The position numbers and the translations under genes were made by a program. 64,000 nt of DNA from Antedon mediterranea (taxonomy: Eukaryota > Echinodermata > Crinoidea > Comatulida > Antedonidae): contig NC_092676.1 in assembly GCF_964355755.1 (NCBI RefSeq), positions 1,968,288 to 2,032,287 of the forward strand, given 5' to 3'. Shown here one piece after another: positions 1-54,596 of the stretch. Position 1 is the stretch's first letter, and the number at the start of each line of letters is the position of its first letter. The notes beneath the pieces are model-generated. The model worked only from the letters and a program-made list of their open reading frames with translations. It did no database searches and was not told the DNA's origin.

Positions 1-295
1 AAGAAATGGGATGTTTTAAAGTTATAAGTTTAAGAATAAGAAAGTGAATAACTTTAATATTACTTTGATATGGCCAATTTAAATTTAGAATATTTTGACC
101 TTCATTTTTGTGTTTCAAGGGACAATACATCTTTAAAAATTGACTAAGCAGACAAAGCAAAAATAACACGTTTTTATTATATAAACACAATAGGCATAGA
201 ACATTAATTTTAAACCGCCCGGTGATATACTGAAATTTAAGTAATTAATTTGAAACGATAAAAGATGAGGAAATCTGTGAGAATGAGAAAAAGTC

Positions 296-366
296 GCCTC
301 TACCAAGATTCGAACACGGACCTTCTGCTTGAAATGCAGATGTCCTAACCATTAGACCACTGGGAC
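296..366 (-). pseudogene. tRNA-Glu(TTC)-like sequence, probably a degenerate tRNA or SINE head
   Basis: On the minus strand the block shows a box A (TGGTCTAATGGTTAGGACA), an anticodon arm TCTGC/GCAGA closing a loop with TTC at the anticodon position, and a box B-like GTGTTCGAATC. The acceptor stem (GTCCCAG against TAGAGGC) and the T stem (CCGTG against CTTGG) each carry mismatches, so a functional tRNA is doubtful. A tRNA-derived SINE head is the alternative. Confidence 0.5.
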
Positions 367-823: not shown

Positions 824-939
824 TTAAAAGAATGTCAAACCCATGTTTAGAATGTTTGCATCTGATTCCAGAACAAAATAATCTGGTGTTTCAGTAGTAT
901 TGATGTTATTGTTCTTCTCTGTTCTCATTTCTTGCATTT

Positions 940-1880
940 TGTAACCTCTTGTTTTCAAACACAGTTTCAGAGTTTGCATAGCAAGTTTTTCTGCTGTCTC
1001 TCTGTTCTCATTTCTTGCATTTTGTAACCTCTTGTTTTCAAACACAGTTTCAGAGTTGGCATAGCAAGTTTTTTCTGCTGTCTCTCTGTTCTCATTCCTT
1101 GCATTTTGTAACCTCTTGTTTTCAAACACAGTTTCAGAGTTGGCATAGCAAGTTTTTTCTGCTGTCTCTCTCTTCTCATTTCTTGCATTTTGTAACCTCT
1201 TGTTTTCAAACACAGTTTCAGAGTTGGCATAGCAAGTTTTTTCTGCTGTCTCTCTGTTCTCATTCCTTGCATTTTGTAACCTCTTGTTTTCAAACACAGT
1301 TTCAGAGTTGGCATAGCAAGTTTTTTCTGCTGTCTCTCTCTTCTCATTTCTTGCATTTTGTAACCTCTTGTTTTCAAACACAGTTTCAGAGTTGGCATAG
1401 CAAGTTTTTTCTGCTGTCTCTCTCTTCTCATTCCTTGCATTTTGTAACCTCTTGTTTTCAAACACAGTTTCAGAGTTGGCATAGCAAGTTTTTTCTGCTG
1501 TCTCTCTGTTCTCATCCCTTGCATTTTTAACCTCTTGTTTTCAAACACAGTTTCAGAGTTGGCATAGCAAGTTTTTCTGCTGTCTCTCTGTTCTCATTCC
1601 TTGCATTTTGTAACCTCTTGTTTTCAAACACAGTTTCAGAGTTGGCATAGCAAGTTTTTTCTGCTGTCTCTCTCTTCTCATTCCTTGCATTTTGTAACCT
1701 CTTGTTTTCAAACACAGTTTCAGAGTTGGCATAGCAAGTTTTTTCTGCTGTCTCTCTCTTCTCATTCCTTGCATTTTGTAACCTCTTGTTTTCAAACACA
1801 GTTTCAGAGTTGGCATAGTTCTCATTCCTTGCATTTTGTAACCTCTTGTTTTCAATCACAGTGTCAGAGTTAACATAGTC
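940..1880 (-). repeat. 84-bp tandem repeat array (tail of receptor copy 1)
   Basis: About twelve units recur every 84 bp, marked on the plus strand by TTTTCAAACACAGTTTCAGA followed by GCATAGCAAG. They differ by only a few bases, such as TCTCTG versus TCTCTC and TTCT versus CCTT. The unit near 1820 is shorter. This is the most homogeneous array in the window and the only one with the ETVFE/KTCYANS variant. Confidence 0.9.
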
Positions 1881-3172
1881 CAGTGGCGGATCTAGCGGGG
1901 GCGTATTTTTAAGGGTTTTTTTTTTTTTGAAAAAAATTAAATAGATTTTAAAAACACGTATCGTTTCGACGGTCATCTATCACCGATGGTTTGCACATTT
2001 TTATAGTGAAAATAGTACGTCGGAGCACATCGTCAGCTTGATCGCATTCCACCAAGCATGTATGTCGACATCCTTTGTGTACTATCAATCTCTAGCGTTA
2101 CCAACGATCATTAACAGTTATGTGTAAAAGGAGCAAGTTGATAAAAGCCACGTGGTGAGCTTGGTCGCGTTCCACTAAGCAGGTCGGCATCCTTTGTGAT
2201 CGTCACTCCCGTATTGTAGAGTAGTGGTACCTCCGACGATCAATCACAGTCAATGAATAGAGTTGATGAAGCCACATGGTCAGTGCTACTATACTACGCG
2301 CCCATTTATTAAGTACAATAAAAACAAAGGCTAGGACTGATAGTGCCTATGAAAATTATCCCGTTAGGCCTATATTTTATTAAAACGTATATTACTATTA
2401 AAATATTAACAATGCTGTAGCATTTCATGACCCTTGTTGTTTTATTTGCTTTTCCGTCGATGATTCTCATAAACAAATCGCGATGACAAAAGATGTGTTT
2501 TGTTTTTTTCAAATCACTAAATATAATGTAATCATGATCGAGCCGGACCGCTAATTTTAAAACGATCGTTTAAACCAGGCCGTTGAATATGCCGTGATTT
2601 TAATTGTAAAAAACATGATCGTCAGTCGATGGCTCGGAGTTTCGATAAATCTCGCGTCGCATGTGTTACGTGGTGGTGGAAAACATTCTCAGCAAGTTTG
2701 CTTCATTAATATGCATGAGACTCTGTGACGACCCGCTTCAACGTGACGTCATTTTACTAGCTGCATGCGAAGAAGTAGTCACCGCGATCGACCCGGCGCG
2801 CGTGTAAGAAAATAATACCGGCCTCTAGGCTAGGACAAGTTTATGCTTATATAAAAGCTGAAAAACATCGTCGCGTTGTAAAAATTTAGATGTAAAGTAC
2901 AGGCAAGTTGTTAGCTTGCTTTGGTACCCTAGGTAAGTATCAGCTTAGTTCCACATGTCGTAATTTGCGAGCTTTAGAGTGTTTGGTAATGACAAATATG
3001 AGATGTTTGTAAATCGTTTTAAACGACTTACAATGCGCTAGAACGCCAAAATTTCCAGGGGCCCTCGACCCCGACCGGGGGCCCTTGGCGGCCCCTGGCC
3101 CCCACCCAATGTTTGCTCGCTTCGCTCGCAAACCTACGCCACCCCTATTTTAATATCCTGGATCCGCCCCTG
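1881..3172. mobile_element. hAT-like non-autonomous DNA transposon inserted in receptor copy 1
   Basis: The left end reads CAGTGGCGGATCTAG and the reverse of the right end reads CAGGGGCGGATCCAG, a 15-bp imperfect terminal inverted repeat of the CAGGGGCGGATC type seen in hAT elements. TAGTC lies on both flanks (1876-1880 and 3173-3177), within a tail repeat whose uninterrupted form reads CATAGTCAGTCTG. hAT target duplications are normally 8 bp, so only part is visible. No transposase frame is present. The interior is richer in CG dinucleotides than its surroundings. Confidence 0.75.
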
Positions 3173-4421
3173 TAGTCAATCTGTTCTGGTGTCTCTCTGT
3201 TCTCATTTCTTGCATTTTGTAACCTCTTGTTTTCAATCACAGTGTCTGAGTAGGCATAGTCAGTCTGTTCTGTTATATTATTATCAATTGTGTAGTAAAC
3301 CTCTTCTGAAATTGTTTGTGGAACATCAGAAGTGTTGCACACGCTATTTTCGATGTTTCTTTGATAGTGCACAGGTACAGGTACAGGTGTGTTGTGATGT
3401 TTCCTCTTTTGTCGTTCATAACAACACACAACAAACACAAGTAAAACTATTAAGTATTAGTATGATGTTACTTGTTACCAGTGTTACAGTTATTTTATTG
3501 GGCTTCTGAGTTATATTTGTTACTGTTGGCATGTCATCAGTGGATGTTATGTCTGTTGGCATGTCATCTCTGATTATTAATTCTATCTCATCAGATCTGC
3601 TCTGAACATCAGTACTCACCAGACATTTAACAGTGTAGTTACCAGCTGGTAAATTACCAAAGCATTTTTCATTCATCATATTGTAATTATATTGAGACAT
3701 GCTCCCCTCTCCCCTCAAACTCCAATGATAAATTCTCTTGTTACCAGATCCACCTTCTGCATAGCACTTGAAGCAATTCTGGTTCACATCAACTTCAGGT
3801 GTTTCATACAACCTCTTAACTTCTACCTTTAATTGAGGGTGAACTAGCAATATCAATGTGTAGCACCAAGTTTTTACAGGATTTATACCAAATGAAAGGC
3901 AGTAGAAAAATATTCCTTCTCCAGAGTGAAAACCTTTCAAAGTCAGATTTATTGTAATGTCAGTATCTGCACTATGAAACTGTGTAATGTTGTGTTTTGC
4001 TTGGATCCAACCAATTGTGATGTCATATAGAAAATTGTATTTCCTGATCATATCACATGATATGTTTACTTCTTCACCTTCAATGACATTTTTTATATCG
4101 TCACAATAAGCTTTTACAAGGTCTGGTTGATTCATGCTCCGTGTAACAGCCAATGAAGGAACCAAATATTGTAATCTATTAGTATTATCATCTTGACATG
4201 TGTATATTCCTGTTTGTTTTTGACCAAACAAAATTAAAATTTGGCATTTGATTTTGTTGCCAAACAAATTAACCAGGTAATTTGATGGTATAATTGTCAC
4301 CGGTACCTTATAGTATGTTGAATATTCAAACTTCAAATTTTACCAAACGTGTTGTAGCTCCTCCATGTCTGAATGTTAACAAGCAGGTCACCACCAATAA
4401 AATAATGATTTTCAAAGTCAT

Positions 4422-12066: not shown

Positions 12067-13140
12067 CTATAATTTGGTAAAACATTGCCTTTTCTGCTGT
12101 CTCTCATTTCTTGCATTTTGTAACCTCTTGTTTTCAATCACAGTGTTTGAGCTAACATAGTCAGTCTGTTCTGGTGTTTCTCTGTCCTCATTTCTTGCAT
12201 TTTGTAATCTCTTCTTTTCAATCACAGTGTTTGAGCTAACATAGTCAGTCTTTTCTGCTGTCTCTCTGTTCTCATTTCTTGCATTTTGTAACCGCTTCTT
12301 TTCAATCACAGCATCAGAGCTAACATAGTCAGTCTGTTCTGCTGTCTCTCTGTTCTTGTTTATTGCATTTTGTAACCTCTTGTTTTGAATCACAGTGTTT
12401 GAGCTAACATAGTCAGTCTGTTCTGATGTCTCTCTGTTCTTTTTTATTGCATTTTGTAACCTCTTCTTTTCAATCACAGTGTTTGAGCTAACATAGTCAT
12501 TCTGTTCTGCTGTCTCTCTGTTCTCGTTTATTGCATTTTGTAACCTCTTGTTTTCAATCACAGTGTTTGGGCTAACATAGTCAGTCTGTTCTGCTGTCTC
12601 TCTGTTCTCATTTATTGCATTTTGTAATCTCTTCTTTTCAATCACAATGTCAGACCTAACATAGTCAGTCTGTTCTGATGTCTCTCTGTTCTCATTCCTT
12701 GCATTTTGTAACCTCTTGTTTTCAATCACAGTGTCAGAGCTAACATAGTCAGTCTGTTCTGGTGTCTCTCTGTTCTCATTTCTTGCATTTTGTAATCTCT
12801 TCTTTTCAATCACAGTGTCAGAGCTAACATAGTCAGTCTGTTCTGCTGTCTCTCTGTTCTCGTTTATTGCATTTTGTAACCGCTTCTTTTCAATCACAGC
12901 ATCAGAGCTAACATAGTCATTCTGTTCTGATGTCTCTCTGTTCTTTTTTATTGCATTTTGTAACCTCTTCTTTTCAATCACAGTGTTTGAGCTAACATAG
13001 TCAGTCTGTTCTGCTGTCTCTTTGTTCTCATTTCTTGCATTTTGTAATCTCTTCTTTTCAATCACAGTGTCAGAGCTAACATAGTCAGTCTGTTCTGCTG
13101 TCTCTCTGTTCTCGTTTATTGCATTTTGTAACTCTTGTTT
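12067..13140 (-). repeat. 84-bp tyrosine-repeat array downstream of short-tail receptor copy 4
   Basis: About 12-13 tail units (YVSSNTVIE, YVSSDAVIE and others) remain in one open frame of 332 codons (12067-13065), although the receptor at 13179 ends in a stop before them and a 1-nt loss near 13130 changes frame. Many units carry SNTVI, NEDRET or INKNRET variants, so this array is less homogenised than that of copy 1. It ends with NERQQKRQCFTKL. It is either a relic tail or sequence reached by splicing or readthrough. Confidence 0.8.
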
Positions 13141-13178
13141 TCAATCACAGTGTCAGAGTTAACATAGGAATGTTTGGT

Positions 13179-16074: not shown

Positions 16075-17310
16075 GCTGTCTCTCATTTCTTGCATTTTGT
16101 AACCTCTTCTTTTCAATCACAGTGTCAGAGCTAACATAGTCAGTCTGTTCTGCTGTCTCTCATTTCTCGCATTTTGTAACCTCTTCTTTTCAATCACAGT
16201 GTCAGAGCTAACATAGTCAGTCTGTTCTGCTGTCTCTCATTTCTTGCATTTTGTAACCTCTTGTTTTCAATCACAGTGTCAGAGCTAACATAGTCAGTCT
16301 GTTCTGCTGTCTCTCTGTTCTCATTTCTTGCATTTTGTAACCTCTTCTTTTCAATCACAGCATCAGAGCTAACATAGTCAGTCTGTTCTGCTGTCTCTCT
16401 GTTCTCGTTTTTTGCATTTTATAACCTCTTGTTTTCAATCACAGTGTCAGAGCTAACATAGTCAGTCTGTTCTGCTGTCTCTCTGTTCTCATTTCTTGCA
16501 TTTTGTAACCTCTTGTTTTCCATCACAGTGTCTGAGCTAACATAGTCAGTCTGTTCTGCTGTCTCTCTGTTCTCATTTCTTGCATTTTGTAACCTCTTCT
16601 TTTCAATCACAGTGTCAGAGCTAACATAGTCAGTCTGTTCTGCTGTCTCTCTGTTGTCATTTCTTGCATTTTGTAACCTCTTCTTTTCAATCACAGTGTC
16701 AGAGCTAACATAGTCAGTCTGTTCTGGTGTCTCTCTGTTCTCATTTCTTGCATTTTGTAACCTCTTCTTTTCAATCACAGTGTCAGAGCTAACATAGTCA
16801 GTCTGTTCTGCTGTCTCTCTGTTCTCATTTCTTGCATTTTGTAACCTCTTCTTTTCAATCACAGTGTCAGAGCTAACATAGTCAGTCTGTTCTGCTGTCT
16901 CTCTGTTCTCATTTCTTGCATTTTGTAACCTCTTCTTTTCAATCACAGTGTCAGAGCTAACATAGTCAGTCTGTTCTGCTGTCTCTCTTTTCTCATTTCT
17001 TGCATTTTGTAACCTCTTCTTTTCAATCACAGTGTCAGAGCTAACATAGTCAGTCTGTTCTGCTGTCTCTCTGTTCTCATTTCTTGCATTTTGTAACCTC
17101 TTCTTTTCAATCACAGCATCAGAGCTAACATAGTCAGTCTGTTCTGCTGTCTCTCTGTTCTCGTTTTTTTTCATTTTGTAACCTCTTGTTTTCAATCACA
17201 GTGTCAGAACTAACATAGTCAGTCTGTTCTGCTGTCTCTCTGTTCTCATTTCTTGCATTTTGTAACCTCTTGTTTTCAATCACAGTGTCAGAGCTAACAT
17301 AGTCAGTCTG
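16075..17310 (-). repeat. 84-bp tyrosine-repeat array of deleted receptor copy 5
   Basis: About 15 units, mostly YVSSDTVIEKK, with a long open stretch at 16419-17195. Three units at the left end lack the CTGTT motif between TCTC and CTCATT and are 9 bp short, one has TTTTTGCATTTTAT, and one lost bases near 17165. This is the longest array in the window. Confidence 0.85.
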
Positions 17311-17767
17311 TTCTTTCTGCTTTCTGTTGCATCTTCAATTGTGAATGCTATCTCATCAGATCAGTACTCACCAGACACATAACTGTGTAGTTACCAGCTG
17401 GTAAATTACCAAAGCATCTTTCATCTGTCTCTAGCTGGTCATCATTCTCTGTCAATTTTTCCTCATTCAAACTCCAATTATATATTTTCTTGTCACCAGA
17501 TCCACCTTCTGCATAGCACTTAAAGCAATTCTGGTTCACATCAACTTCAGGTGTTTCAGAGTATAACCTTTTAACATCCACCTTTAATTGAAGGTGAACT
17601 GTCTATATCATGTTTACTTGATGATTTAATTATCACTGGTTGCTTTAGTGAATGATTGGTAATAAAACCTCCTTTCAAATTGTACTAACTCTCTTGAAGC
17701 TCCATGTCTAAATATCAACAACCAGGTCACAAGTACAAAGATGATATTAAGAAATTTCAAAGCCATC
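16075..17767 (-). pseudogene. Receptor copy 5: internally deleted pseudogene
   Basis: The signal peptide (MALKFLNIIFVLVTW, start near 17765) and about 20 mature residues run directly into the third Ig-like module (17348-17581). Modules 1 and 2 are missing. Within module 3, a 13-nt loss after VSTD shifts the frame to a stop, and after ATES the sequence passes straight into the tail repeats with the TM and juxtamembrane region missing. Two deletions and a frameshift make a membrane receptor impossible. Confidence 0.8.
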
Positions 17768-18850: not shown

Positions 18851-20044
18851 TTATTCTGCTGTATGATCATCAATTGAACAGTAAATCTCATTCTTTTCAA
18901 TGGTTTGCGAAACATTCAAAGTGTCACCAACACTAATTGTGTCATTATTACTTTGAAAGTGCACAACAGGTACAGGTGTGTTGCGATAGTTTCTCTTCTG
19001 TTGTTCATAACAACACACAATAAACCCAAGTAAAACTATCAGTAGGCCTATGATAGTGCTTGTTACAAATACTATGGTTATTTGATTAGTGTTCTTGCAT
19101 TTTGTCGGCATGCCAAATTTGATATCTTGAAATGTTGTTATTCTTTCGTTTACATCTTTGATTGTGAATGCTAACTCATCAGATCTGTTCTGAACATCAG
19201 TACTCACCAGACACTTGACAGTGTAGTTACCAGCTGGTAAATTACTAAAGCATCTTTCATCAGGTTCATTGTAATTATATTGAGTCATGATCCCCTCTCC
19301 TCTTAGTCCCAAATTATAAATTGTTTTATTACCAGATCCACCTTCTGCATAGCACTTAAAGCAATTCCGGTTTACATCAACTTCAGGTGTTTCATATAAC
19401 CTTTGAACCTCTACCATTAATTGAGAGTGAACCATCAATATCAATGTGTAGCAGTAAATACTTCTATAGTTTAAAATACAGTAGAAAAATATCCCTTCTC
19501 CAGGTTGAAAACCTTTTAAAGTCTGATTAATTGTAACAGTGTTAGTATCTGTAAGATGAGACTGTGTGATGTGGTGCTTTCCTTGGATCCAAATTATTGT
19601 GACATTAGTTTTGAAGTAAGCTCTGAAGTAATGCCTGTATTCCCTAATCATGTCACATGACATGTTTACTTCCTCTCCTTCAATGATGTCTTTTATTTCA
19701 TCACAATAAAGTTTTACATGCTTTCGTTGACCCTTTCGTTGACCCTTTCTCTGTGTAACATTTGATGAAGGAACCAAATATTGTAAACTATCATCATCTT
19801 GACATGTGTATATTCCTGTTTGGTGACCAAAAGAAATGAAAAGTGAACATTTAACTGCAACATCTTTTCCACCCACATGAACTATGTTCTGTTTACTTGA
19901 CGATGTAATTCTCACAGTTATTTTGGAGTTTGATGAGTAATAAAATATTCTTTCAAATTTTACCCACTCTTTTGAAGCTCCATGTCTAAATATCAACAAG
20001 CAGGTCATCATTACAAAAATAATATTAAGGAATTTCAAAGCCAT
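18851..20044 (-). CDS. Receptor copy 6: Ig-like receptor, short-tail form
   Basis: The start is at 20042-20044 (MALKFLNIIFVMMTCLLIF); 15 upstream codons in frame are not leader-like. The ORF has 397 residues. Module 1 has VAVKCSLFISF and YTCQDDD. A loop after it contains the in-frame duplication GQRKGQRKGQRKH. Module 2 has MSCDM, IWIQGKHHIT and FFYCILN. Module 3 has CFKCYAEGG and YTVKCLVS, but the usual YNWSL reads YNLGL, so the core tryptophan is lost. The stalk has TTFQDIKFGMP. The TM is followed by CCYEQQKRN, and the tail ends NEIYCSIDDHTAE then TAA. Confidence 0.8.
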   Translation of the reverse strand: MALKFLNIIFVMMTCLLIFRHGASKEWVKFERIFYYSSNSKITVRITSSSKQNIVHVGGKDVAVKCSLFISFGHQTGIYTCQDDDSLQYLVPSSNVTQRKGQRKGQRKHVKLYCDEIKDIIEGEEVNMSCDMIREYRHYFRAYFKTNVTIIWIQGKHHITQSHLTDTNTVTINQTLKGFQPGEGIFFYCILNYRSIYCYTLILMVHSQLMVEVQRLYETPEVDVNRNCFKCYAEGGSGNKTIYNLGLRGEGIMTQYNYNEPDERCFSNLPAGNYTVKCLVSTDVQNRSDELAFTIKDVNERITTFQDIKFGMPTKCKNTNQITIVFVTSTIIGLLIVLLGFIVCCYEQQKRNYRNTPVPVVHFQSNNDTISVGDTLNVSQTIEKNEIYCSIDDHTAE

Positions 20045-37747: not shown

Positions 37748-38902
37748 TTATTCTGCTGTATGATCATCAATTGAACAGTAAATCTCATTCTTTTCAATGG
37801 TTTGCGAAACATTCAAAGTGTCACCAACACTAATTGTGTCATTATTACTTTGAAAGTGCACAACAGGTACAGGTGTGTTGCGATAGTTTCTCTTCTGTTG
37901 TTCATAACAACACACAACAAACACAAGTAAAACTATCAGTAGGCCTATGATAGTGCTTGTTACAAATATTATGGTTATTTGATTAGTGTTCTTGCATTTT
38001 GTCGGCATGCCAAATTTGATATCTTGAAATGTTGTTATTCTTTCGGTTACATCTTTGATTGTGAATGCTAACTCATCAGATCTGTTCTGAACATCAGTAC
38101 TCACCAGACACTTGACAGTGTAGTTACCAGCTTTTAAATTACTAAAGCATCTTTCATCACGTTCATTGTAATTATATTGAGTCATGATCCCCTCTCCTCT
38201 TAGTCCCCAATTATAAATTGTTTTAATACCAGATCCAACTTCTGCATAGCACTTAAAGCAATTCCGGTTCACATCAACTTTAGGTGTTTCATATAACCTT
38301 TGAACCTCTACCATTAATTGAGAGTGAACCATCAATATCAATGTGTAGCAGTAAATACTTATATTGTTTAAAATACAGTAGAAAAATATCCCTTCTCCAG
38401 AATGAAAACCTTTTAAAGTCTGATTAATTGCAACAGTGTCAGTATCTGTACGAAGAGTCCGTGTAATGTTGTATTTTCCTTGGATCCAACCAATTATCAC
38501 TTTATATCGGATGGTATAATTTCTGTTCATTTTACATGAAATATTTAATTCCTCTCCTTTAATGATGTCTTTCATATTGTCACAATAAAGTTTTACACGT
38601 TTTGGTTGAACTGCAAACCATGTTACCTGTACATTGGACGTCGGAACCAAATACTGTAATCTATCCTTTTGACATGTGTATATTCCTGTTTGGTGACCAA
38701 AAGAAATTAGAAGTGGACATTTAACTGCAACATTTTTTCCAACTATTTTCCGTTTACTTGATGTCATTTTCACAGTTATTTTGGAGTTTGATGAGTAATT
38801 AAAACTTCTTTCAAATTTTACCAACTCTTTTGAAGCTCCATGTCTGAATATCAACAACCAGGTCACAAGTACAAAGATGATATTAAGGAATTTCAAATTC
38901 AT
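37748..38902 (-). CDS. Receptor copy 12: Ig-like receptor, short-tail mosaic
   Basis: 384 residues starting MNLKFLNIIFVLVTW. Modules 1 and 2 are of the copy 3/4 type (VGKNVAVKCPLLISF, CQKDRLQY, IGWIQGKYNIT). From about HSQLMVEVQRLYETP onward it follows copy 6 (CFKCYAEVGSGIKTI, YNWGLRGEG, TTFQDIKFGMP). The switch falls near residue 195-205, between modules 2 and 3. The TM (FVTSTIIGLLIVLLVFVVCC) is followed by YEQQKRN, and the tail ends NEIYCSIDDHTAE then TAA. Degenerate tail fragments follow at about 37650-37740. Confidence 0.82.
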   Translation of the reverse strand: MNLKFLNIIFVLVTWLLIFRHGASKELVKFERSFNYSSNSKITVKMTSSKRKIVGKNVAVKCPLLISFGHQTGIYTCQKDRLQYLVPTSNVQVTWFAVQPKRVKLYCDNMKDIIKGEELNISCKMNRNYTIRYKVIIGWIQGKYNITRTLRTDTDTVAINQTLKGFHSGEGIFFYCILNNISIYCYTLILMVHSQLMVEVQRLYETPKVDVNRNCFKCYAEVGSGIKTIYNWGLRGEGIMTQYNYNERDERCFSNLKAGNYTVKCLVSTDVQNRSDELAFTIKDVTERITTFQDIKFGMPTKCKNTNQITIIFVTSTIIGLLIVLLVFVVCCYEQQKRNYRNTPVPVVHFQSNNDTISVGDTLNVSQTIEKNEIYCSIDDHTAE

Positions 38903-39778: not shown

Positions 39779-39789
39779 TCACCACCCAC

Positions 39790-40860
39790 TCTTTTTTCTT
39801 GCATTTTGTAACCTCTTGTTTTCAATCACAGTGTCAGAGCTAACATAGTCAGTCTGTTCTGCTGTCTCTCTGTTCTGATTTCTTGCATTTTGTAACCTCT
39901 TGTTTTCCTTCACAGTGTCAGAGCTAACATAGTCAGTCTGTTCTGCTGTCTCTCTGTTCTCATTTCTTGCATTTTGTAACCTCTTGTTTTCAATCACAGT
40001 GTCTGAGCTAACATAGTCAGTCTGTTCTGCTGTCTCTCTGTTCTCATTTCTTGCATTTTGTAACCTCTTGTTTTCAATCACAGTGTCAGAGCTAACATAG
40101 TCAGTCTGTTCTGATGTCTCTCTGTTCTCATTTCTTGCATTTTGTAACCTCTTGTTTTCAATCACAGTGTCAGAGCTAACATAGTCAGTCTGTTCTGCTG
40201 TCTCTCTGTTCTCATTTCTTGCATTTTGTAACCTCTTGTTTTCAATCACAGTGTCAGAGCTAACATAGTCAGTCTGTTCTGATGTCTCTCTGTTCTCATT
40301 TCTTGCATTTTGTAACCTCTTCTTTCCAATCACAGTGTCAGAGCTAACATAGTCAGTCTGTTCTGCTGTCTCTTTTTTCTCATTTCTTGCATCTTGTAAC
40401 CTCTTCTTTTCAATGACAGTGTCTGAGCTAACATAGTCAGTCTGTTCTGCTTTCTCTCTGTTCTCATTTCTTGCATTTTGTAATCTCTTCTTTTCAATTA
40501 CAGTGTCTGAGCTAACATTATAGTCAGTCTCTTCTGCTGTCTCTCTGTCCTCATTTCTTGCATTTTGTAATCTCTTCTTTTCAATCACAGTGTCTGAGCT
40601 AACATAGTCAGTCTGTTCTGCTTTCTCTCTGTTCTCATTTCTTGCATTTTTTAACCTCTTGTTTTCAATCACAGTGTCAGAGCTAACATAGTCAGTCTGT
40701 TCTGCTGTCTCTTTGTTCTCATTTCTTGCATCTTGTAACCTCTTCTTTTCAATGACAGTGTCTGAGCTAACATAGTCAGTCTGTTCTGCTTTCTCTCTGT
40801 TCTCATTTCTTGCATTTTGTAACCTTTTCTTTTCAATCACAGTGTCAGAGCTAACATACA
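39790..40860 (-). repeat. 84-bp tyrosine-repeat array of receptor copy 13
   Basis: Thirteen in-frame units. The pattern REKAEQ, then QDARNE(N/K)KETAEQ, then ENK/GKK recurs, indicating duplication of a multi-unit block. One unit has DYNVSSD (3-bp insertion). The array is intact although the gene is broken, so the damage is recent or the array is homogenised by other means. Confidence 0.88.
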
Positions 40861-43019
40861 ACTGTTCAGCCTGTTCTGCTGTTCTGTCATCAACTGAACA
40901 GTGAACCTGATCGTCTTCTGCATTCATTTGCAGAACATCAGATGTGTCTCCCGCACTCATTGTGTCAATGTTTCTTTGAAAGTGCACAACTGGTGCTGAT
41001 GTGTTCTGATGTTTTCTCTTTTGTTGTTCATAAAAACACACAACACACACAAGTACAGCTATCAGTATAATGTTACTTGTTACTATTAGTATTGTTATTT
41101 TAGGCTTCTTGGTATTAGTATCTTGAATTGTGAATGCTGACTCATCAGATCTGTTCTGAACATCAGTACTAACCAGACACTTAACAGTGTAGTCACCAGC
41201 TGGTAAATTACTAAAGCATCTTTCATCAGTTTCATTGTAATACTGGTATTCCTCTCCTCTCAAACTCCAATCATAAATTCTCTTGTCACCAGATCCACCT
41301 TCTGCATAGCACTTGAAGCAATTTTGGTTCACATCAACTTCAGGTGTTTCATATAACCTTTTTACTTCTACCTTTAATTTGGGATGAACAGTTAATATCA
41401 ATGTGTAGCAAGTAATCCTATAATTGGTATTGGTAAATTTAATTGAAGTACAGTAGACAAATATTCCCTCTCCAGAATGAAAACCTTCAAAAGTCTGATT
41501 AACTGTAGTATTCTTAGTTTCTGCATTATGAAACTGTGTAATGTTGTGTTTTCCTTGGATCCAACTTATTGTGACATTAGTTATGATGTTATATCTCTTG
41601 ATGATGTCACATGACATATTTACTTCCTCTCCTTCAATCATATCTTTCATTTCATCACAATAAAGTTTTACATACTTTGGTTGACTTCTTCTCCATGTTA
41701 CATTTGATGAAGGAACTAAATATTGTAAACTATCATCATCTTGACATGTGTGTATTCCTTTTTTGTGATCAAAAGAAATGAAAAGTTGGCAGTTGACATT
41801 TTTTCCAGTCAAATAAAAGGCTCTTTACTGTTTACTTGATGGTGTAATTGTCACAGGTTGCTTAGTGTAAGATTTCATTAGGCGCAGGAGCCCCGGATAG
41901 CGTTACGTTTGAAAACCCCAAAAAGTGAGGTTTTCAACCATTAGCGGCATGACTGATGTGAGTGATTAATGTGTTTTACGGACGGTTTCAAGGACTATCC
42001 TACCAGTGGGCTGTTCACTGGTCAAATGATTGACACTTTGTATCACCGTTTGTAACTGGAGCTGTGACGACCTTTGTAACTGGAGCTGTGACGACCTTGC
42101 AAGAATACTAGGCCAGAATTTTTAATTGAAAAGTGCCTTGGTATTAACAATAACATGGAGATGGAAACAAATTTGTCTATCTTTCTTTCTAAAATAAATG
42201 GTCACTATAGTTTCAAACTAGGCTTAGTCCACCACATTAGTAATTACGAATCGAAACCTAAATTAAAATTGTTGGTATTCTTTGGCCGTTGTTTGATTAA
42301 TTACATCTTCATGCCATGTTTTTTTTTTTCTCTAATGATTTGGCGATACGCTCCTATATTAATTAGGCCTACTAGCAGAGGGTTCGATGAGTTTTGAAAA
42401 GTTATGGAAATGTGGTCTAACATATAGCAATTCAGTTTTTTAAGGCCCTTCTTCCTTGTCCGAGCCTTTGGAAATATTAAAAAGTTATATTAATATAATA
42501 TATTCTGTGTTTTCATGTTTTGAGAAATTGTATATCATTTCAGATGTTTCGCGCTGCGCTTTTATTTGTTTCGCGCTTCGTCTAGTTCGAGCTTCCTCCG
42601 TACATACCGATAATTAATATGATTTTTCATTTCATTTTTTGTACATCATTAACAAATAGCATACAGAACCCCATACAGAACATACCCTTCTCTGAGAAAA
42701 CACTTGTGGGCGATTCCCCGAATACGACATGATGGAATAGCTTTGGAGACTTTGACTTTGGAGTAGGCCTAAATCGAAACGTCAAGCAACTCAACAGTTC
42801 TTTTCAGAACTAATATAGGCCTACGTGGTGTACCGCAAATTTATTTCAACAAATATGTAACTTGTTTAGCACGTTTAAAATGGATAGCAAACCATATTTT
42901 TAAAAAAAACCTGAATTATTTCAAACAGACAGCACATTAGTTCAAACAGATAGCACAATAGATAGCTCAATCAAATGGATGATATAACTGTACTGTGCAT
43001 TCTATACGGATTATCGGGT

Positions 43020-44220
43020 AGCACGTTCTTTCAAATGGATAGCACATTTTTTCAAATGGATACTGTAGCACATTCTTTCAAATGGATAGCACATTATTTC
43101 AAATGGATAGCACATTAGGTAGCACAATCAAATGGATATAGTACTGTACATTATTCTATGATTATCGGGTAGCACATTCTTTCAAATGGATAGCACATTA
43201 GGCCTATTTCAAATGGATAGCACATTCTTTCAAATGGATAGCACATTATTTCAAATGGATAGCACATTATTTCAAATGGATAGCACATTATTTCAAATGG
43301 ATAGCACATTGGGTAGCACAATCAAATAGATATAGTACTGTACATTATTCTATAAGGATTATCGGGTAGCACATTATTTCAAATGGATAGCACATTATGT
43401 AGCACAATCAAATGGATATAGTACTGTACATTATTCTATACGGATTATCGGGTAGCACAGTCTTTCAAATGGATAGCACATTAGGTAGCACAGTCAAATG
43501 GATATAGTACTGTACATTATTCTATACGGATTATCGGGTAGCACATTCTTTCAAATGGATAGAAAATTATTTCAAATGGATAGCACATTCTTTCAAATGG
43601 ATAGCACATTATTTCAAATGGATAGCACATTATTTCAAATGGATAGCACATTAGGTAGCACAATCAAATGGATGTAATTGTACTGTACATTATTCTATAC
43701 GGATTATCGGGTAGCACATTCTTTCAAATAGCACATTATTTCAAATGGATAGCACATTATTTCAAATGGATAGCACATTGGGTAGCACAATCAAATGGAT
43801 ATAGTACTGTACATTATTCTATAAGGATTATCGGGTAGCACATTATTTCAAATGGATAGCACATTAGGTAGCACAATCAAATGGATATAATTGTACTGTA
43901 CATTATTCTATAGCCTACGGATTATCGGGTAGCACATTCTTTCAAATGGATAGCACATTCTTTCAAATGGATAGCACATTGGGTAGCACAATTAAATGGA
44001 TCATAGTACTGTACTGTACATTATTCTATACGGATTATCGGGTAGCACATTCTTTCAAATGGATAGCACATTATTTCAAATGGATAGCACATTAGGTAGC
44101 ACAATCAAATGGATATAATTGTACTGTACATTATTCTATACGGATTATCGGGTAGCACATTCTTTCAAATGGATAGCAAATTATTTCAAATGGATAGCAT
44201 GGATTTGGGTAGCACAATCA
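43020..44220. repeat. Minisatellite with higher-order structure
   Basis: The basic unit is about 20 bp (TTTCAAATGGATAGCACATT). It is organised in super-units that add a GGTAGCACAATCAAATGG stretch, a GTACTGTACATTATTCTA stretch and GGATTATCGGGTAGCACATT. The super-unit recurs roughly eight times with different numbers of the 20-bp unit. Confidence 0.9.
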
Positions 44221-44278
44221 AATTGAGCACATTGGGTAACGCATTGCATCAAATGGGAGCCTACTGTACAGTTATTCT

Positions 44279-44460
44279 ATTGAATTGAATTGAAATATAT
44301 ATTTATACTGGGTAACCTCTTCAGTCAAAGACTGGTCTCCCAGGGGGCTCAGTTGGTGATCAGTGGCTGTGATGTACTAATACACCGGGGTAACCCCCCA
44401 CTCGTCTCGAAAGATGTACTAGGTTCTTTAAAGTACACACGAGCTAGATGTGTATTCTAT
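44279..44460 (-). mobile_element. Nested LINE 3' end with AATTG-type tail
   Basis: ATTGAATTGAATTGAA at the left end followed by ACTGGTCTCCCAGGGGGCTC. Read on the minus strand this is a 3' untranslated end with an AATTC-type microsatellite, as in CR1/L2-like LINEs. Similar tails occur near 46755, 55565 and 61930. Confidence 0.5.
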
Positions 44461-45382
44461 TAACGGGTGTAGCACATTAAAATTGAGAGGATAAGATGGA
44501 CATCATAATTTATTATTAAGGGGAAAAACAGCAAATCCTTACTGAGGGGACACTCCTATAAAGCGGACATTAAGGGGACGGGGAACATTTAAGCTCAGTG
44601 CCAATGTTCACTCAATATATTTTCCATCACAAAATAACAAAAAAGACGAAATATTTATATCCATTTATCGTTATTAAATAAAAATGGATATCATGATAAT
44701 TATGATACTTTGTTTGTCTTGAAAGTTTTCATTGGTGAAACGTTGCCTGCTACATTTTGAATTTCCGAGTCCAGATCAGTATTGGTATTGGTTTTCCGTG
44801 ATCTATTCTAACTAATGAAACAATTTTTAGAAAATGATATATCTGATAGATATCATCTAAGTGATGTTTTACATATAAGTTATAACGTTTAACTTTTCAT
44901 TCTCCATACATTCAATTCTTTTAATATAGTTCTTGTATAACACCATATCAAGTAGTAGTAGAAATTGTTGAATTGAAGGGTTTTCTTATTATTCAGTCAA
45001 TTCAGTGTTTCTATACAGAAAAGAGTAGTCAGTGGCCTTAACATCAATTAATTGTATAATTTGCACCCAAGGTCGAATAGCAAGAAACTCAGGTCCAGTT
45101 ACATTGGTGTTCATTGGTCAATAGGAAATGAACAGCACACTTATGGGTGGTGACAAAGTTTAGTTATTGATAAGTTGTCCTTGGGAAAAACACATTAGTT
45201 GGGTTGACCATGGGCTGACAGAGTTAACGACTTCGTAACGCTATCCGGGGCTCCTGCGCCTAATGGTAATAAAACCTACTTTCAAATTGTACCAACTGTC
45301 GTGATGCTACTCCATGTCTGAATATCAACATCCAGGTCACCATTGGGCCTACAAAGATGATATTAAGGAATTTCAAAGCCAT

Positions 45383-46101: not shown

Positions 46102-46490
46102 CTATGTTAATTTGTCGTTAATTGCATAGTAAACCTCCTCTTCTGCATTTGTCTGTAGAACATCAGATGAATTCTCACCCACACTTGCATCCCTGTTTCT
46201 TTGATAGTACACAGCAGGTTGTGATGTGTGTTTGTGCAATCATCAGTATAATATTACTTGTTAGTATTATTTGTTACTTAATTAGTATCCATGGTTGGCG
46301 TGGTATAATTGATATCTTGAGTTGTTGTCTTCATTCTTTCTGTTTTGCATTGTACCGTACCTTCAATTGTGCCTTGGAGTGTTGTCATCCTCTTTGTTGG
46401 CATGATGACATCTTTAATTTTGAATGCTGTCTCGTCATGAGGTGGTTTCTCGAAAGATTGTAAAATCAAAAACGGTACTGGGTATCACCA
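46102..46490 (-). pseudogene. Receptor relic: juxtamembrane segment, TM and stalk remnants
   Basis: 46102-46230 is open (AVYYQRNRDASVGENSSD, EEEVYYAIND, KLT) and here runs on from KHTSQP, matching the KHHNTPVPV region of intact genes. Upstream are a degenerate TM (about 46240-46290) and a stalk remnant with RMTTLQG. In this copy the orphan juxtamembrane segment is still joined to receptor sequence, which shows where the other orphan copies came from. Confidence 0.6.
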
Positions 46491-46499
46491 ACTAGCATA

Positions 46500-47723
46500 G
46501 CTAACATAAAAATGTTCATTTTATTCATCATTCATCTGTGTGATTAACAATTGAACAGTAAATCTCATTCTTTTCAACAGTTTGCGAAACATTCAAAGTG
46601 TCACCAACACTGATTGTGTCATTGAATCATCTTTTTATACATTATGATTTACTGTATTCTATCTCTAAAAAAAAATAAAAAAATAATTATTTATAAAACA
46701 TCAGAAATTATAATGTTTTTTACTCAAATATGAATGAAAGAAATAAATGTTTATTTGAATTGAATTGAATTGTTTCTTTGATAATGCACAACTGGTACAG
46801 GTGTGTTGTGATGTTTCTACTTCTGTTGTTCATAATAACACACAACAAACTTGAGTAAAACTATCAGTATGATGTTACTTGTTACTAGTATTATGATTAT
46901 TTTATTAGTTTTTATGTTCACCATTCTGTCTGTTTGCATTGTAAACCCTATCTCATCCGATCTGTTCTGAACATCAGTACTCACCAGACACTTAACAGTG
47001 TAGATTGAAGCAATTCTGGTTCACATCAACTTTAGGTGTATCATACAACCTTTGAACCTCTACCTTTATTTGAGGCTGAACTGTTAACATCAATGTGTAG
47101 CACCAAGTGTCTAAACAATTGTTAATTTCAATTGATAAACAGTAGAAAAATATACCTTCTCCGGAATAAAAACCTTTAATAGTTTGAGTATAGCTAATAT
47201 TTCTTTCAGTATTTGAACTGTGGAACTCTGTAATGTTGTACACTCCTTGGATCCAACCACTTGTGACATTATATTTGATAAGATTCTTTCTGATAATACA
47301 TGTAATGTTTACTTCATCTCCTTCAATGATGTTTTTCAAACTTCCACAAAAGACTTTTTCATCATATTTTTCTGATTTAACTTCAGATGAAAGAAAAACA
47401 TATTGTAAATGGTCATCATCTTCACATGTATAGATTCCTTGTTTTTGTTTATCAAAAGATATAAATAATGGACATTTTATAATGAATTGTTGTGTCAAGT
47501 AATTGTTGAACATACGCTGTCCGTTCTCGCCTTTGTTAAAGTATTTACCACCCACATTAATCTGGAACTCCTTACTTGATGTTATGATTGTCACAGGTTG
47601 TTTAGAATCTGATGAGTAAAAGAAATATTAATGAGATCCATCAGGTGATTTTTAAGTTCCGTGTCTGAACATTAGCAAGCAGGTCACTATTCCAACGATG
47701 ATGTTAAGGAATTTCAAAGTCAT
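46500..47723 (-). pseudogene. Receptor copy 14a: pseudogene with deleted third module
   Basis: The leader starts at 47721-47723 (MTLKFLNIIVGIVTCLL) but meets stops soon after MFRHGT. Modules 1 and 2 are open (46992-47594: FIIKCPLFISF, YTCEDDD, NITCII, SGWIQGVYNIT, FFYCLS). Most of module 3 is missing: NQNCF is followed directly by the end of the VKCLVS segment. A TAG interrupts the basic QQK-KHH region, and a retroelement tail sits in the juxtamembrane segment (about 46622-46775). The ectodomain is the most divergent in the array (extra NKGENGQRMFNNY insertion). Confidence 0.75.
46622..46775 (+). mobile_element. 5'-truncated retroelement tail in receptor pseudogene 14a
   Basis: About 150 bp interrupt the juxtamembrane coding sequence between GTGTCATTG and TTTCTTTGATA. 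It ends in TTTGAATTGAATTGAATTG. ATTG at both edges may be the target duplication. Confidence 0.55.
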
Positions 47724-49241: not shown

Positions 49242-50882
49242 CTAATTTGGTGTTTCGTAATATTTATGCTCACCACTCTTTTTTCTTGCATTTTGTAACC
49301 TCTTGTTTTCCATCACAGTGTCTGAGCTAACATAGTCAGTCTGTTCTGCTGTCTCTCTGTCCTCATTTCTTGCATTTTGTAACCTCTTGTTTTCCATCAC
49401 AGCGTCAGAGCTAACATAGTCAGTCTGTTCTGGTGTCTCTCTGTCCTCATTTCTTGCATTTTGTAATCTCTTCTTTTCAATTACAGTGTCTGAGCTAACA
49501 TAGTCAGTCTGTTCTGCTGTCTCTCTGTTCTCATTTCTTGCGTTTTGTAGCCTCTTCTTTTCAATCACAGCATCAGAGCTAACATAGTCTGTCTGTTCTG
49601 ATGTCTCTCTGTTCTCATTTCTTGCATTTTGTAACCTCTTGTTTTCAATCACAGTGTCAGAGTTAACATACAACTTTTCAGCTTGTTCTGCTGTTTTGTC
49701 ATCAACTGAACAGTAAACCTCATTTTCTGCATTAATTTGCTGAACATCAGAAGTAATACCAACACCAATTGTGTCAATGTTTCTTTGAAAGTGCACAACT
49801 GGTACAGGTGTCTTTTGCTGTTTCCTCTTTTGGTATTCATAACAGCACACTACACACACAAGTAAAACTATCAATATAATAATATTTGTTACCAATATTA
49901 TGGTTGTTGTATTAGGTCTCCGAGACTGTGTAGGCATGTCGTCATTGGAGGTTTTGTCTTGATAGTTGGCTTGATATGTTGTCAGTCTGTCTGTTGAAAA
50001 GATGCTATCTTTGAGTGTAAATGCTATCTCATCAGATTTGTTCTGAACATCAGTACTCACCAGACACTTAACAGTGTAGTTACCAGCTGGTAAATTACTA
50101 AAGCATCTTTCATCAGTTTCATTGTAATACTGATACTGGAAGTCCTCTCCTTTCAGCATCCAATTATAAATTGTTTTGTCACCAGATCCACCTTCTGCAT
50201 AGCACTTGAAGCAATTCTGGTTCACATCAACTTCAGGTTTTTCATATAATCTTTTAACTTTTATTTTCAATTGAGTGTGAACTGTTAATATCAATGTGTG
50301 GCAGTAGATACTCACATAATGGGTATACTTGAATGACATGCATACAAAAAATAATCCTTCTCCAGAATGAAAACCTTTAAAAGTCTGATTAAATGTAGTG
50401 TTCTTGGTATCTGTTTGATGAAACTGTGTAATGTTATGCTTTCCTTGGATCCAACCAATAGTGACATCATTTTGGATGTAGCCATATTTCTTGATCATGT
50501 TGCATGAAATGTTTACTTCCTCTCCTTCAATGGCGTCTTTCATATCTTCACAATAAAGTGTTATGTATGATTGAGATAGGTCCCATGTTCTATGTACCCT
50601 CAATGAACGTCGCAAATATTGTAAATTATAATCATCTTGACATGTGTATATTCCTGTTTGGTTACCAAAAGAAATGAAAAGTGGACATTTAATTCTGAAA
50701 TCCTTTCCACTTATACGAAATACATCATATTTACTTGATGATTTGATTGTCACAGGTTGCTTAGTGTATGATTGGTAATAAAACCTTCTGTCAAATTGTA
50801 CAAACTCTCTTGAAGCTCCATGTCTAATTATCAACAACTAGGTCACAAGTACAAAGATGATATTAAGGAATTTCAAAGCCAT
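49242..50882 (-). pseudogene. Receptor copy 14: five-repeat receptor with a nonsense codon in the signal peptide
   Basis: The start codon is at 50880-50882 (MALKFLNIIFVLVT). The conserved tryptophan codon then reads TAG (50838-50840), and everything after it is open for 531 codons: FRIKCPLFISF, YTCQDD, NISCNM, IGWIQGKHNIT, CFKCYAEGG, YNWMLKG, YTVKCLVS, stalk, TM, CCYEYQKRKQQ, NEVYCSVDD, five tail units and the C-terminus KKSGEHKYYETPN shared with copy 8. A single substitution separates it from an intact gene, so this could be a null allele of a polymorphic gene. An alternative start downstream would lack most of the leader. Confidence 0.75.
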
Positions 50883-51600: not shown

Positions 51601-52095
51601 TCTATGCATTTTCATCATGTTCTGCTGTGTCATTAATTGTAAACCTCCTCTTCCGCATTTGCCTGTAGAACATCAGATGAATTCTCAACCACACTTGCAC
51701 CACTGTTTCTTTGATAGTACACAGCAGGTTGTGGTGTTGTCATGTTTCTTTTTACATTACAGTTCCACTACCCAATTTGATGCTACAATTGTTAAAGACA
51801 GTGGAAGGTATTTTGAGTCACATTTAAACTCGCTATCTTCTTCTTCTTCTTCTTCTTCTTCGTATTAGGAGCCAACTTCATATGTGAAGACACTGCTCCT
51901 TCAACTCTGTTTTGCTAGCTCTACTGTATTTGGTTGTGTATTATTCTATTTAGTTATTCTTTTATTATTATTATTTTTTTTTTTTTTTTTTTTTTTTTGG
52001 GGAAATTGTACAAGATGTCTTTAAGCTCCTACATGTCTGAATATCAACAAACACAGATCACCAACAGATTAAAGGATTTCAAAGTCATCTTTAAA
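51601..52095 (-). pseudogene. Receptor relic: signal peptide joined to juxtamembrane segment
   Basis: The right end retains a leader-like piece with LLIFRH-type sequence (52020-52095). The left end has PAVYYQRNSGASVVENSSD and EEEVYN ending at TAA. Ectodomain and TM are absent. It is the sister of the relic at 30536-30870, with an extra insertion of about 190 bp (51815-52003) containing (TTC)n and a T-run. Confidence 0.6.
51838..52000. repeat. (TTC)n microsatellite and long T tract
   Basis: Eight TTC units at about 51838-51862 and about 30 T near 51968-51999, both inside an insertion relative to the sister relic. Read on the minus strand, the T-run is a poly(A)-like stretch. Confidence 0.8.
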
Positions 52096-52800
52096 CCATT
52101 GATGCGGTTTGGTTAAATCTAACTATCAGTCCTAATGCGGCCTGAAACTGTTATTTGCATTTATAAACTAATTTATTTACATTTTATACAGGAAGTCTAG
52201 GTTTGTAATCACAACAAGGAAGAATATCTAGTATGCTTAATTACTGAAACTAAGTTTGTAAAAATAACAATGATAATTGTTTTCTATAAAGATTAAGAAC
52301 ACAAAAATATTTTCTGTATTTGTTATTTTTTTATAATTTTATATATTTTAGGTTTTTAAATTGTTTGACTGTAACTTCCACAATCCTCCAATAAAATGAT
52401 CCAATCTAAAATAAGGATGATTTAATTCAAATTTACGCAGTACATAAAACACATTTTACAATTACAAATTATTTTCCAGTATATCCCCTGCGGTTTAGAA
52501 AGAGTTTGGAGTTATAGCTATACATATATATAATTTTTACTTTTTGTTTTCTAATTGGTGTTTCTAATTAATAATGAAACTTGCCCTCTGAATAAGAACT
52601 TACTGTATTTTATTCTATTTTTCCTGTGAAATGTCACCTATTAGCCTATTATTTGGTAAAATATAGCCTGTTCTGCTGTGTCTCAATTCTTGCATTTTGT
52701 AACCTCTTCTTTTCAATTACAGTGTCAGAGTTAACATAGTCAGTCTGTTCTCATTTCTTGCATCTTGTTTTCAATGACAGTGTCTACTGTATGCTAACAT
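52096..52800. other. Spacer with one degenerate tail repeat
   Basis: Family flank with CAACAAGGAAGAATATC near 52216. At about 52680-52800 there are one recognisable tail unit (NSDTVIEKKRLQNARIE) and a shortened second one, out of frame with the short-tail copy that follows. Confidence 0.5.
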
Positions 52801-52813
52801 AGGGATGTTTGGT

Positions 52814-54596
52814 TTATTCTGCATGATTATCAATTGAACAGTAAAGCTCATTTTTTTCAATGGTTTGCAAAACATTAGAATTGTCACCAACATTAATTGT
52901 ATCAATGCCTCTTTGATAATGCATAGCTGGTACAGCTGTGTTGCGATGTTTCCTCTTTTGTTGTTCATAACAACACACAACAAACACAAGTAAAACTATC
53001 AGTAGGCCTATGATAGTACTTGTTACAAATGTTATGGTCATTTGATTAGTTTTCTTGCTTTTTGTCGGCATGCCAAATTTGATATCTTGAAATGTTGTTA
53101 GTCTTTCTGTTACCATAACATCTTTAATTCTATCTCATCAGATCTGTTCTGAACATCAGTACTCACCAGACACTTAAAGACCCCTTCCCTGCAATTTTGG
53201 ACGTTTTTTGGAAAATAATACATATATATCACTTTAAAAACATTAAACCATGTCATTCCTTGTCTTAAATGTACGTTTTATGGTAAATTATGATAAAAAG
53301 TGAGAAACAATGCACTACCTAAGTAGCTCGCGGCGATCGACCTCTCGTGGACGGTCTTAGGCCTAGCCTAGCTAGGCTTAGTTTTGTAGGCCTAGCTGGT
53401 AAACATCGGTAACGTACGAACATCGTACGCGAGCTATATACCTAGCCTGACGTTGTATAGTTGCTGCATTAATTGTCTTTCTATTTTTGCCAGACTCCGT
53501 TACAAATTGGGGAAAACCCGGTATTTTCGCTGAAAAGTTAGGAGTCTTCCATTTGTTTTGGCCTCACGATCGATCGAAAAGTGGGCGAATTATAGGTGAA
53601 AAACAAAAATATCAATCCGCGCGCAATGCATTCTGGGATTTTTAGCGGGCCGCTATAATTATTAGAATCGGATTATTTTTCACATTTTTAACCGTTTAAA
53701 GACGAAAAAAGTTATCGCAATAGGACCATATAGTATTATTTTTACATTAAATATAGTTTGTGATCTTAAATTAGATCTAAAAAACGTAGGGAATGGGGCT
53801 TTAACAGTGTAGTTACCAGCTGGTAAATTACTAAAGCATCTTTCATCAGTTTCATTGTAATGTAATACTGATACTAAGATTCCTCTCCTTTCAAACTCCA
53901 ATTATAAATGGTTCTGTCACCGGATCCACCTTCTACATAGCACTTGAAGCAATTCTGGTTCACATCAACTTTAGGTGTATCATATAACCTTTTAACCTCT
54001 ACCTTTAATTTAGGGTGAACCAGCAATATCAATGTGTAGCACCTTATGCTCCTATTAGTTAAGTAATAATATGAAATACAGTAGATAAATATTCCTTCGC
54101 CAGAATTAAAACCTTTAAAAGTCAAATGTAATATCAGTATCTGCACTATGATACTGTGTAATGTTGTGTTTTCGTTGGATCCAACTAATTGTGATGTCAT
54201 ATGGTTGATGTTATATTTTCTGATGTCACATGAAATGTTTACTTCTTCTCCTTCAATGATGTCTTTTATATCTTCACAATCAGCTCTTACAAAGTCTGGT
54301 TGAGCTCTTCTCCATTGTACATCATCCGATGAAGGAAGCAAATATTGTAAATTATCATCATCGTAACATGTGTATATTCCTTTTTGTGGTTGACCAAAGG
54401 AAATAAGAAGTGGGCATTTAATTGTGACGTCTCTTCCATACAAATTATCAAAATCTTGATAACTTGATAGTGTAATTATCACAGGAAGATTAGTGTATGA
54501 TAGATAATAAAACTCTCCTTGAAATTGTTGTGAAGCTCTATATCTTGATATCATCAATAGACATGTCACCATGGTTTAGCAATTTTAAACTCATCT
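52814..54596 (-). pseudogene. Receptor copy 15: short-tail pseudogene split by a piggyBac-like MITE
   Basis: The 5' part (53874-54572) is of the copy 2/10 type (VTIKCPLLISF, YTCYDDD, NISCDI, CFKCYVEGG). The 3' part (52814-53116) is of the short-tail type (TTFQDIKFGMP, TM, CCYEQQKRKH, NELYCSIDNHAE, TAA). Breaks include a deletion and frame change in the leader after MSLKLLN, a frameshift in module 2 near WVQ, a TAG plus a 5-nt duplication after GEES, and the 623-bp element inside VKCLVS. It is another mosaic of two subfamilies. Confidence 0.78.
53178..53800. mobile_element. piggyBac-like MITE with TTAA target duplication
   Basis: TTAA at 53174-53177 and 53801-53804 flanks a 623-bp element with imperfect terminal inverted repeats AGACCCCTTCCCTGC and AGCCCCATTCCCTAC. 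Uninterrupted paralogues read CACTTAACAGTG at this point, so one TTAA was duplicated on insertion, as piggyBac-type transposases do. No transposase ORF is present. The interior is GC-richer and contains TAGGCCTAGC-type words. Confidence 0.88.

Follow-up and report, generated by a model that had tools for sequence, protein, structure and literature searches.

A probable coding 84-bp minisatellite of variable unit number in the tails of a type I receptor-like family of the crinoid Antedon mediterranea

On the minus strand of the 64-kb window of Antedon mediterranea analysed here (the whole stretch C7:1968288-2032287 of chromosome C7), one receptor-like gene is present in about 16 copies, of which several are broken. 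Where the frame is open, that is, uninterrupted, a single exon encodes a signal-peptide-like start, the ectodomain, a transmembrane segment and a juxtamembrane tail, followed by one to 12 units of an 84-bp tandem repeat (Table 1). The open single-exon frames with in-frame units hold 1, 1, 2, 3, 4 and 9 of them in the window and 1, 4 and 12 in its flanks. A subtype with the tail sequence CSID(D/N)H, to which gene copy g13 belongs, has a short-tail form that ends in TAA just before the units. We read these features jointly as a coding minisatellite in the tails of type I proteins, with unequal exchange between units, a short-tail subtype and a number of docking sites changed by amplification, and place slightly better than even confidence in this reading as a whole. 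Docking is its weakest link as regards the 28-residue unit, because the tyrosine of the unit is mostly found in YVSS and selection on it is not detectable. The earlier note had placed the units in receptor cytoplasmic tails with the array at 12067-13140 as its example; the placement stands for the open type I frames, which run into the units, and fails for that array. The repeat system is more interesting genome-wide than at 12067-13140.

Table 1. Receptor gene copies and repeat arrays in the window (window positions) and in its flanks (positions on C7)
Feature	Positions	Strand	Remarks
g1, open receptor frame, 387 aa	56808..57971	-	1 unit
g2, disrupted receptor copy	52655..54572	-	TAA at the short-tail position; one unit
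g3, with TAG in the signal peptide (50840)	49242..50882	-	5 in-frame units
g4, disrupted receptor copy	46105..47723	-	no unit found
g5, transposon-split, in-frame stop	39779..45382	-	13 in-frame units (39795-40858)
g6, short-tail receptor ORF	37748..38902	-	mosaic: g13/g14-like 5' part, g11-like 3' part
g7, open receptor frame, 459 aa	35393..36772	-	3 units; 90-bp spacing
g8, open receptor frame, 665 aa	31551..33548	-	9 in-frame units; array 31556-32333
g9, open receptor frame, 496 aa	28257..29747	-	4 units
g10, open receptor frame, 432 aa	24815..26113	-	1 unit
g11, short-tail receptor ORF	18851..20044	-	stop ahead of decayed unit-like sequence
g12, array behind a receptor remnant	16076..17766	-	about 15 units; some spacings 85 and 77 bp
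g13, receptor ORF, 372 aa	13179..14297 (ORF to 14384)	-	short tail ending CSIDDHTAE; TAA 13181-13179
13-unit 84-bp array behind the g13 stop	12097..13167	-	1-bp deletion in first unit, 7-bp deletion in last
g14, open receptor frame, 426 aa	8465..9745	-	2 units; 90-bp spacing
g15, open receptor frame, 509 aa	5382..6911	-	one partial unit; sister of g8
g16/g17, array with frameshifts	916..4333	-	unit at 3258, 1.3-kb insert 3172-1881, then 12 units; mostly YANS variant
Flank stop-to-stop frame, 760 codons	C7:1747629-1749908		12 units (first with His for Tyr)
Flank stop-to-stop frame	C7:1965413-1967077		4 units
Flank stop-to-stop frame	C7:2056359-2057630		1 unit

By hydropathy and sequence, the 10 open frames of the window are of the type I transmembrane class: each has a signal-peptide-like start, one transmembrane segment (mean Kyte-Doolittle 2.5-3.2) and basic residues on its inner side, and in g6 and g11 the ectodomain contains a further, weaker hydrophobic stretch. 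The middle domain of the ectodomain contains an invariant C, W and C, in that order; modelled alone, it is predicted to form a seven-strand beta-sandwich (pLDDT 79), and among known folds it best matches a variety of beta-sandwich proteins. Pfam Ig models match family members only below their cut-offs, where cut-offs are given, and Y_Y_Y, a Pfam family distinct from Ig, matches nine of 11 members (best E 3.1e-07), rising above its cut-off in the member L023 (36 vs 26.6 bits). No sushi domain was found among the Pfam matches listed for sets of 4, 11 and 6 family proteins, in a search that misses Ig-like domains too, and PDB sequence searches gave no meaningful match. The fold matches of the full-length g9 model carry no weight because the model is poor (pLDDT 39). 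Outside the repeat the protein is constrained: among 12 copies, mean dN/mean dS was 0.73, 0.65 and 0.40 in the three parts of the ectodomain, 0.54 in the transmembrane segment with the juxtamembrane tail, and 0.34 in the signal peptide.

The 84-bp unit has the consensus translation YVSSDTVIEKKRLQNARNENRETAEQTD, of 28 residues. Tandem Repeats Finder reports 12.8 copies at 12097-13167, with 91% matches and a score of 1713, and the window as a whole contains 82 units or unit-like pieces (partial pieces counted) on the minus strand and none on the plus strand. A repeat of this length with variable copy number, as the earlier note had described it, is thus real, and the numbers that it listed by eye (1, 2, 3, 4, 5, about 9, 13 and about 15) are all present. 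Tyrosine occupies position 1 in 78 of the 79 window units used and in 36 of the 37 units of open receptor frames, and some other residues of the unit are just as constant. This tyrosine stands mostly in YVSS, which does not fit YxxPhi; YxN, the Grb2-type motif, occurs in eight of the 37 open-frame units. An open frame through the repeat is in itself weak evidence of coding, because the period is a multiple of three, and it was rejected as proof: across the left-most array three ORFs are open in different frames, one of them on the opposite strand. A second coding minisatellite (51/66 bp) lies at 5740-6047, in the ectodomain stalk of g15.

The units might instead be a spacer or helical scaffold, or carry Ser/Thr sites, the tyrosine being incidental. 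They are highly charged (fraction 0.39) and the Uversky line places them among disordered sequences, and the low-confidence g9 model places short helices along the repeat region, as such a role would allow. The near-constant tyrosine at position 1 speaks against it, although the other residues that are equally constant weaken the point, and so do the tyrosine motifs of distant tails described below; we consider this explanation improbable.

The array at 12067-13140 is not a receptor tail. The g13 stop codon lies upstream of it, so that the g13 frame never enters the array, and the 1-bp deletion in the first unit puts the remaining units in another frame. The tail pattern was found in 26 places in the window and flanks, of which two were of another kind and were dropped. 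The CSID(D/N)H subtype makes up 12 of the 24 tails compared, with TAA at the codon of the g13 stop in 11 and CAA in one; the other 12 tails read on past this position. Because 11 of the 12 subtype tails stop at the same codon, the g13 stop is not a private accident, and on this comparison g13 is a short-tail member of the family. Its ectodomain is nearest to that of g14, and its tail is nearest, by a small margin, to those of g6 and g11.

One partial gene model of g13, the Antedon mediterranea protein P0001 (249 aa), matches g13 at 99.6% over residues 1-223; its final 27 residues come from C7:1962219, 19.5 kb further along this chromosome. It exits g13 at a CTG/GTGAGT donor, joining the exon 19.5 kb downstream and omitting the transmembrane segment. 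The splice-donor-like CTG/GTGAGTAC occurs in 14 places on the minus strand, including 13499, 57176, 50063 and 35965, in the third part of the ectodomain. Conceivably it is the short-tail form that works as the receptor, most of the arrays being relics that are not translated, with alternative splicing at this donor making a form that lacks the transmembrane segment. The shared stop in 11 of 12 tails of one subtype, the exact departure of P0001 at the donor and the position of the donor in one of the only two stretches of at least 12 bases that show no variation among 11 paralogues would all suit such an arrangement, to which we nevertheless give little credence: frames with 3, 4, 9 and 12 units are open, and the long intron of P0001, which extends across several family copies, may be artefactual. 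Splicing around the stops of g13, of g3 and of the disrupted copies may occur.

Each of the window's four longest arrays either belongs to a broken gene or follows a stop. That long arrays are found only in broken genes was considered and rejected, given a Mann-Whitney P of 0.09 in the window and the open 12-unit frame in the flank. The receptor remnant of g12 lacks most of the ectodomain and the transmembrane segment, and g16/g17 is probably one disrupted gene whose single array was split by the 1.3-kb insert. The insert in the g5 ectodomain, at 45260-41881, is a DNA transposon with perfect 27-bp terminal inverted repeats, flanked by TTA and TAA, and contains a large 21/86/113-bp minisatellite; the insert that splits the g16/g17 array (3172-1881) has similar inverted ends, CAGGGGCGGATCCAG / CTAGATCCGCCACTG, and we take it to be hAT-like. 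Seven second segments resembling the juxtamembrane tail (PAVYYQRN...EEVYYAIND) lie on the minus strand downstream of family genes, at 51731, 46221, 37604, 30675, 18707, 15990 and 12011.

Sister genes differ in their number of units. In a tree of 12 copies, three pairs with bootstrap support of 100 each have 13 vs 4 units (g5/g9), 9 vs a partial unit (g8/g15) and 5 vs 1 (g3/g10), and a fourth (g7/g14, support 94/95) has 3 vs 2; g6 and g11 are also paired, with no units in either. The number is therefore unequal in all four repeat-bearing sister pairs, a comparison between paralogues of one assembly. Genes of unequal number nevertheless have array ends in common: NARKKSGW in g1/g5, KKSGEHKYYETPN in g3/g9 and NDDRGCHK in g7/g14. 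Of the 79 units, a fraction of 0.44 have their nearest neighbour within their own array, vs 0.12 after shuffling; none of 500 shuffles reached the observed value. Because sisters differ in number and share array ends, and because units of one array are more alike, unequal exchange inside the arrays that leaves their ends intact would explain the differences in unit number. The mosaic g6 is a case of exchange between genes as well. The change of repeat number by unequal exchange, which had been proposed for this DNA, is thus upheld as far as close paralogues differ accordingly.

Selection on the unit was assessed from distinct variants in codons 1-17 of the units, so that inherited changes were not multiply counted. 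Among the 79 units there were 15 synonymous, 39 nonsynonymous and one stop variant, vs 13.2, 39.4 and 2.4 expected (synonymous P 0.33), and among the 37 open-frame units 13, 28 and none, vs 9.8, 29.3 and 1.8 (P = 0.17). No selection was detected on the tyrosine codon of the 37 open-frame units (one variant vs 2.4 expected, P = 0.31), which is indistinguishable from its neighbours because changes are so few. Counts weighted by occurrence look more like purifying selection and are inflated by shared descent.

These results make a neutral coding minisatellite a serious rival. It would consist of a tail segment under low constraint, subject to unequal exchange, in which neither unit number nor the tyrosine has a role in dosage. 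Besides the undetectable selection, the long arrays in broken genes, the second coding repeat in the g15 stalk and a tyrosine-free tail repeat elsewhere in the family (below) agree with it. In the open arrays of the window, the changes in spacing are multiples of three (87, 90), whereas those of g12 and g17 mostly are not (85, 77, 83), which is less expected under neutrality and comes from few independent events; the amplification of unrelated tyrosine-bearing units in several gene clusters is a further point against it. On balance we regard neutrality as possible but rather doubtful. Even if the repeat is neutral, a family is now described that was nearly absent from the protein collection searched, in which one partial model represented it.

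The genome searched consists of 354 Mb in 18 contigs of one assembly. With the protein of one member as query (E ≤0.001), the receptor family gave at least 131 matches, on C1, C2, C3, C7 and C10, a lower bound, with 112 of 176 candidates scored, in which one gene often accounts for several matches. The pattern of the 28-residue unit has at least 86 exact matches, counted with zero mismatches, so that the number is a lower bound and diverged units elsewhere would escape it; 84 lie at 1.73-2.07 Mb of C7 (1.728-2.065), and the other two, on C1, are chance-like. Because 84 of the 86 exact matches are confined to this part of C7, the 28-residue array appears, within the limits of an exact-pattern search, to be a local invention. 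Two members on C1 (L024 and L034, 3.75-3.77 Mb) have a single unit-like stretch, ENDYVMSGTVVEKMR, after EEDVYYTIDD, a possible single-copy, unamplified ancestor of the unit. Among 5.8 billion protein sequences, a search with g9 returned no relatives and searches with two family alignments returned P0001 as the sole relative, in each case among proteins of 0.55-1.75 times the query length that share exact words. Outside the family, the window contains a piece of a dynein heavy chain gene at 62798-63232 (Pfam DHC_N1, E 4.8e-38), a tRNA-Glu (TTC) near its left edge (295-366, minus strand) and 12 occurrences over its whole length of the palindrome TAGGCCTA, vs about 0.6 expected from base composition.

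Nineteen distant loci were analysed, chosen mostly for long open frames; the end of the stretch taken cuts the tail in none of them, and the N-terminus is cut in four. Self-comparison of the tails, with a threshold that we set ourselves, found a coding tail repeat in six of the 19, a share that the choice of loci overstates; the loci include close paralogues (L024/L034), and the amplifications may not be independent of one another. The tail of L020 has 6.7 copies of 43 residues (92% matches) with DEYVNV, and that of L029 has 4.3 copies of 52 residues with IMYNAI and NEYSIEL. EDIYYSI is found in the 47-residue repeat of L032 and in the older copies of the 46-residue repeat of L019, the best-conserved copies of which have Phe for Tyr. 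The repeat of L021 is diverged, and no tandem repeat was found in L026, the neighbour of L020. L027 (C1:32502101-32504500) has a long acidic DGNREDGN tail repeat with a 15-bp period and units that lack tyrosine.

An ITAM is a pair of YxxL/I with a spacing of 6-12, and an ITIM is I/V/L/S-x-Y-x-x-I/V/L. The open tails of the window conform to neither, with the ITIM pattern in one of 10 (g15) and at most two YxxPhi per tail, and g1, g7 and g14 have His or Pro in place of the juxtamembrane YxxPhi tyrosine; the ITIM pattern occurs in seven of the 19 distant tails. Acidic YxxPhi was scored as Y-x-x-I/L/V with an acidic residue within the four preceding positions. The distant tails, which are related and hence not independent, contain 46 such motifs vs 14.6 after shuffling (0/1000), and the 17 left without L020 and L029, related likewise, contain 36 vs 11.0 (0/1000). 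In the 10 open tails of the window the enrichment is not significant (8 vs 4.6; 79/1000 shuffles). Enrichment of YxN was rejected, since the distant tails have 18 vs 14.4, a count that 185 of 1000 shuffles reach. hemITAM and core motifs of the Botryllus/Hydractinia type thus characterize the family only at the level of its distant tails. Because acidic YxxPhi is enriched there, the family overall resembles one with hemITAM-type tyrosine signalling, to which the repeat of the window would add tyrosines of a different context. The transmembrane segment and tail of L022 (C1:32196939-32198813) have a weak Pfam match to SCIMP (E 8e-05, 23.5 bits, cut-off 27), which we take to be a tyrosine-bearing adaptor.

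Under the reading of a coding minisatellite that changes docking-site number, the family proteins would be recognition receptors and their tails would signal through acidic YxxPhi tyrosines of hemITAM/ITAM-like kind. Amplification of tyrosine-bearing units, unrelated ones in different gene clusters, would change the number of docking sites, and this number would in turn set the avidity of SH2-type partners. Tuning of valency by unit number is plausible on these sequences, and tail length could set signal strength. More tentatively, and with less belief than doubt, we suggest that the crinoid family recurrently sets valency by amplifying unrelated tyrosine modules (28, 43, 46-47 and 52 residues) in separate clusters, with TAA giving short-tail partners, as an evolvable gain control in invertebrate recognition. 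If this is true, the number of docking sites of a receptor is a genetically variable quantity, legible in the DNA and altered by simple repeat turnover, and how valency relates to the recognition threshold becomes a question testable through natural length variants.

We know of no described crinoid receptor family of the large tyrosine-tailed kind; if the reading is true, crinoids join the animals that have such families. The open-access literature, searched under a few terms, yielded no receptor family whose tyrosine tails are tandemly amplified. Vertebrate paired receptors of the KIR type combine members with an ITIM tail and members with an adaptor-pairing tail. As in the crinoid family, long- and short-tail forms stand side by side and exchange occurs between genes; the crinoid tails differ in that a stop before a variable repeat array makes the difference.

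Also close to the crinoid family are the FcoR receptors of the Botryllus fuhc locus, whose tails carry ITIM, hemITAM and core Y-x-x-I/L/V motifs, the Hydractinia motifs being cited in the part of that source used here (PMC12065747). Like the crinoid family, the Botryllus FcoR and Hydractinia Alr candidates are clustered, diverse single-pass receptors with tyrosine motifs in the tail, in the same part of the source (PMC12065747). FcoR is described there with a V-type Ig domain, a sushi domain and two C2 Ig domains (PMC12065747); among the Pfam matches listed for the crinoid family no sushi domain was detected. The crinoid genes have a one-exon ORF and tandemly amplified tail units, and the latter are not mentioned for FcoR in the portion of the source drawn upon (PMC12065747).

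Tyrosine-bearing tandem units of variable number are also found in bacterial effectors. Chlamydia TARP has tyrosine-rich tandem repeats of about 50 aa, the number of which differs among strains according to the excerpt used (PMC2279300); it is a secreted bacterial effector, a context different from that of the crinoid receptors. In Helicobacter CagA, SHP2 binding rises with the copy number of EPIYA-C, as stated in the part of the source consulted (PMC5408210). The likeness is that CagA, in the same part, also has tyrosine-bearing tandem units in a disordered tail, with a number changed by recombination (PMC5408210). CagA differs in being an injected bacterial protein whose binding has been measured, whereas the crinoid units are known from their sequence.
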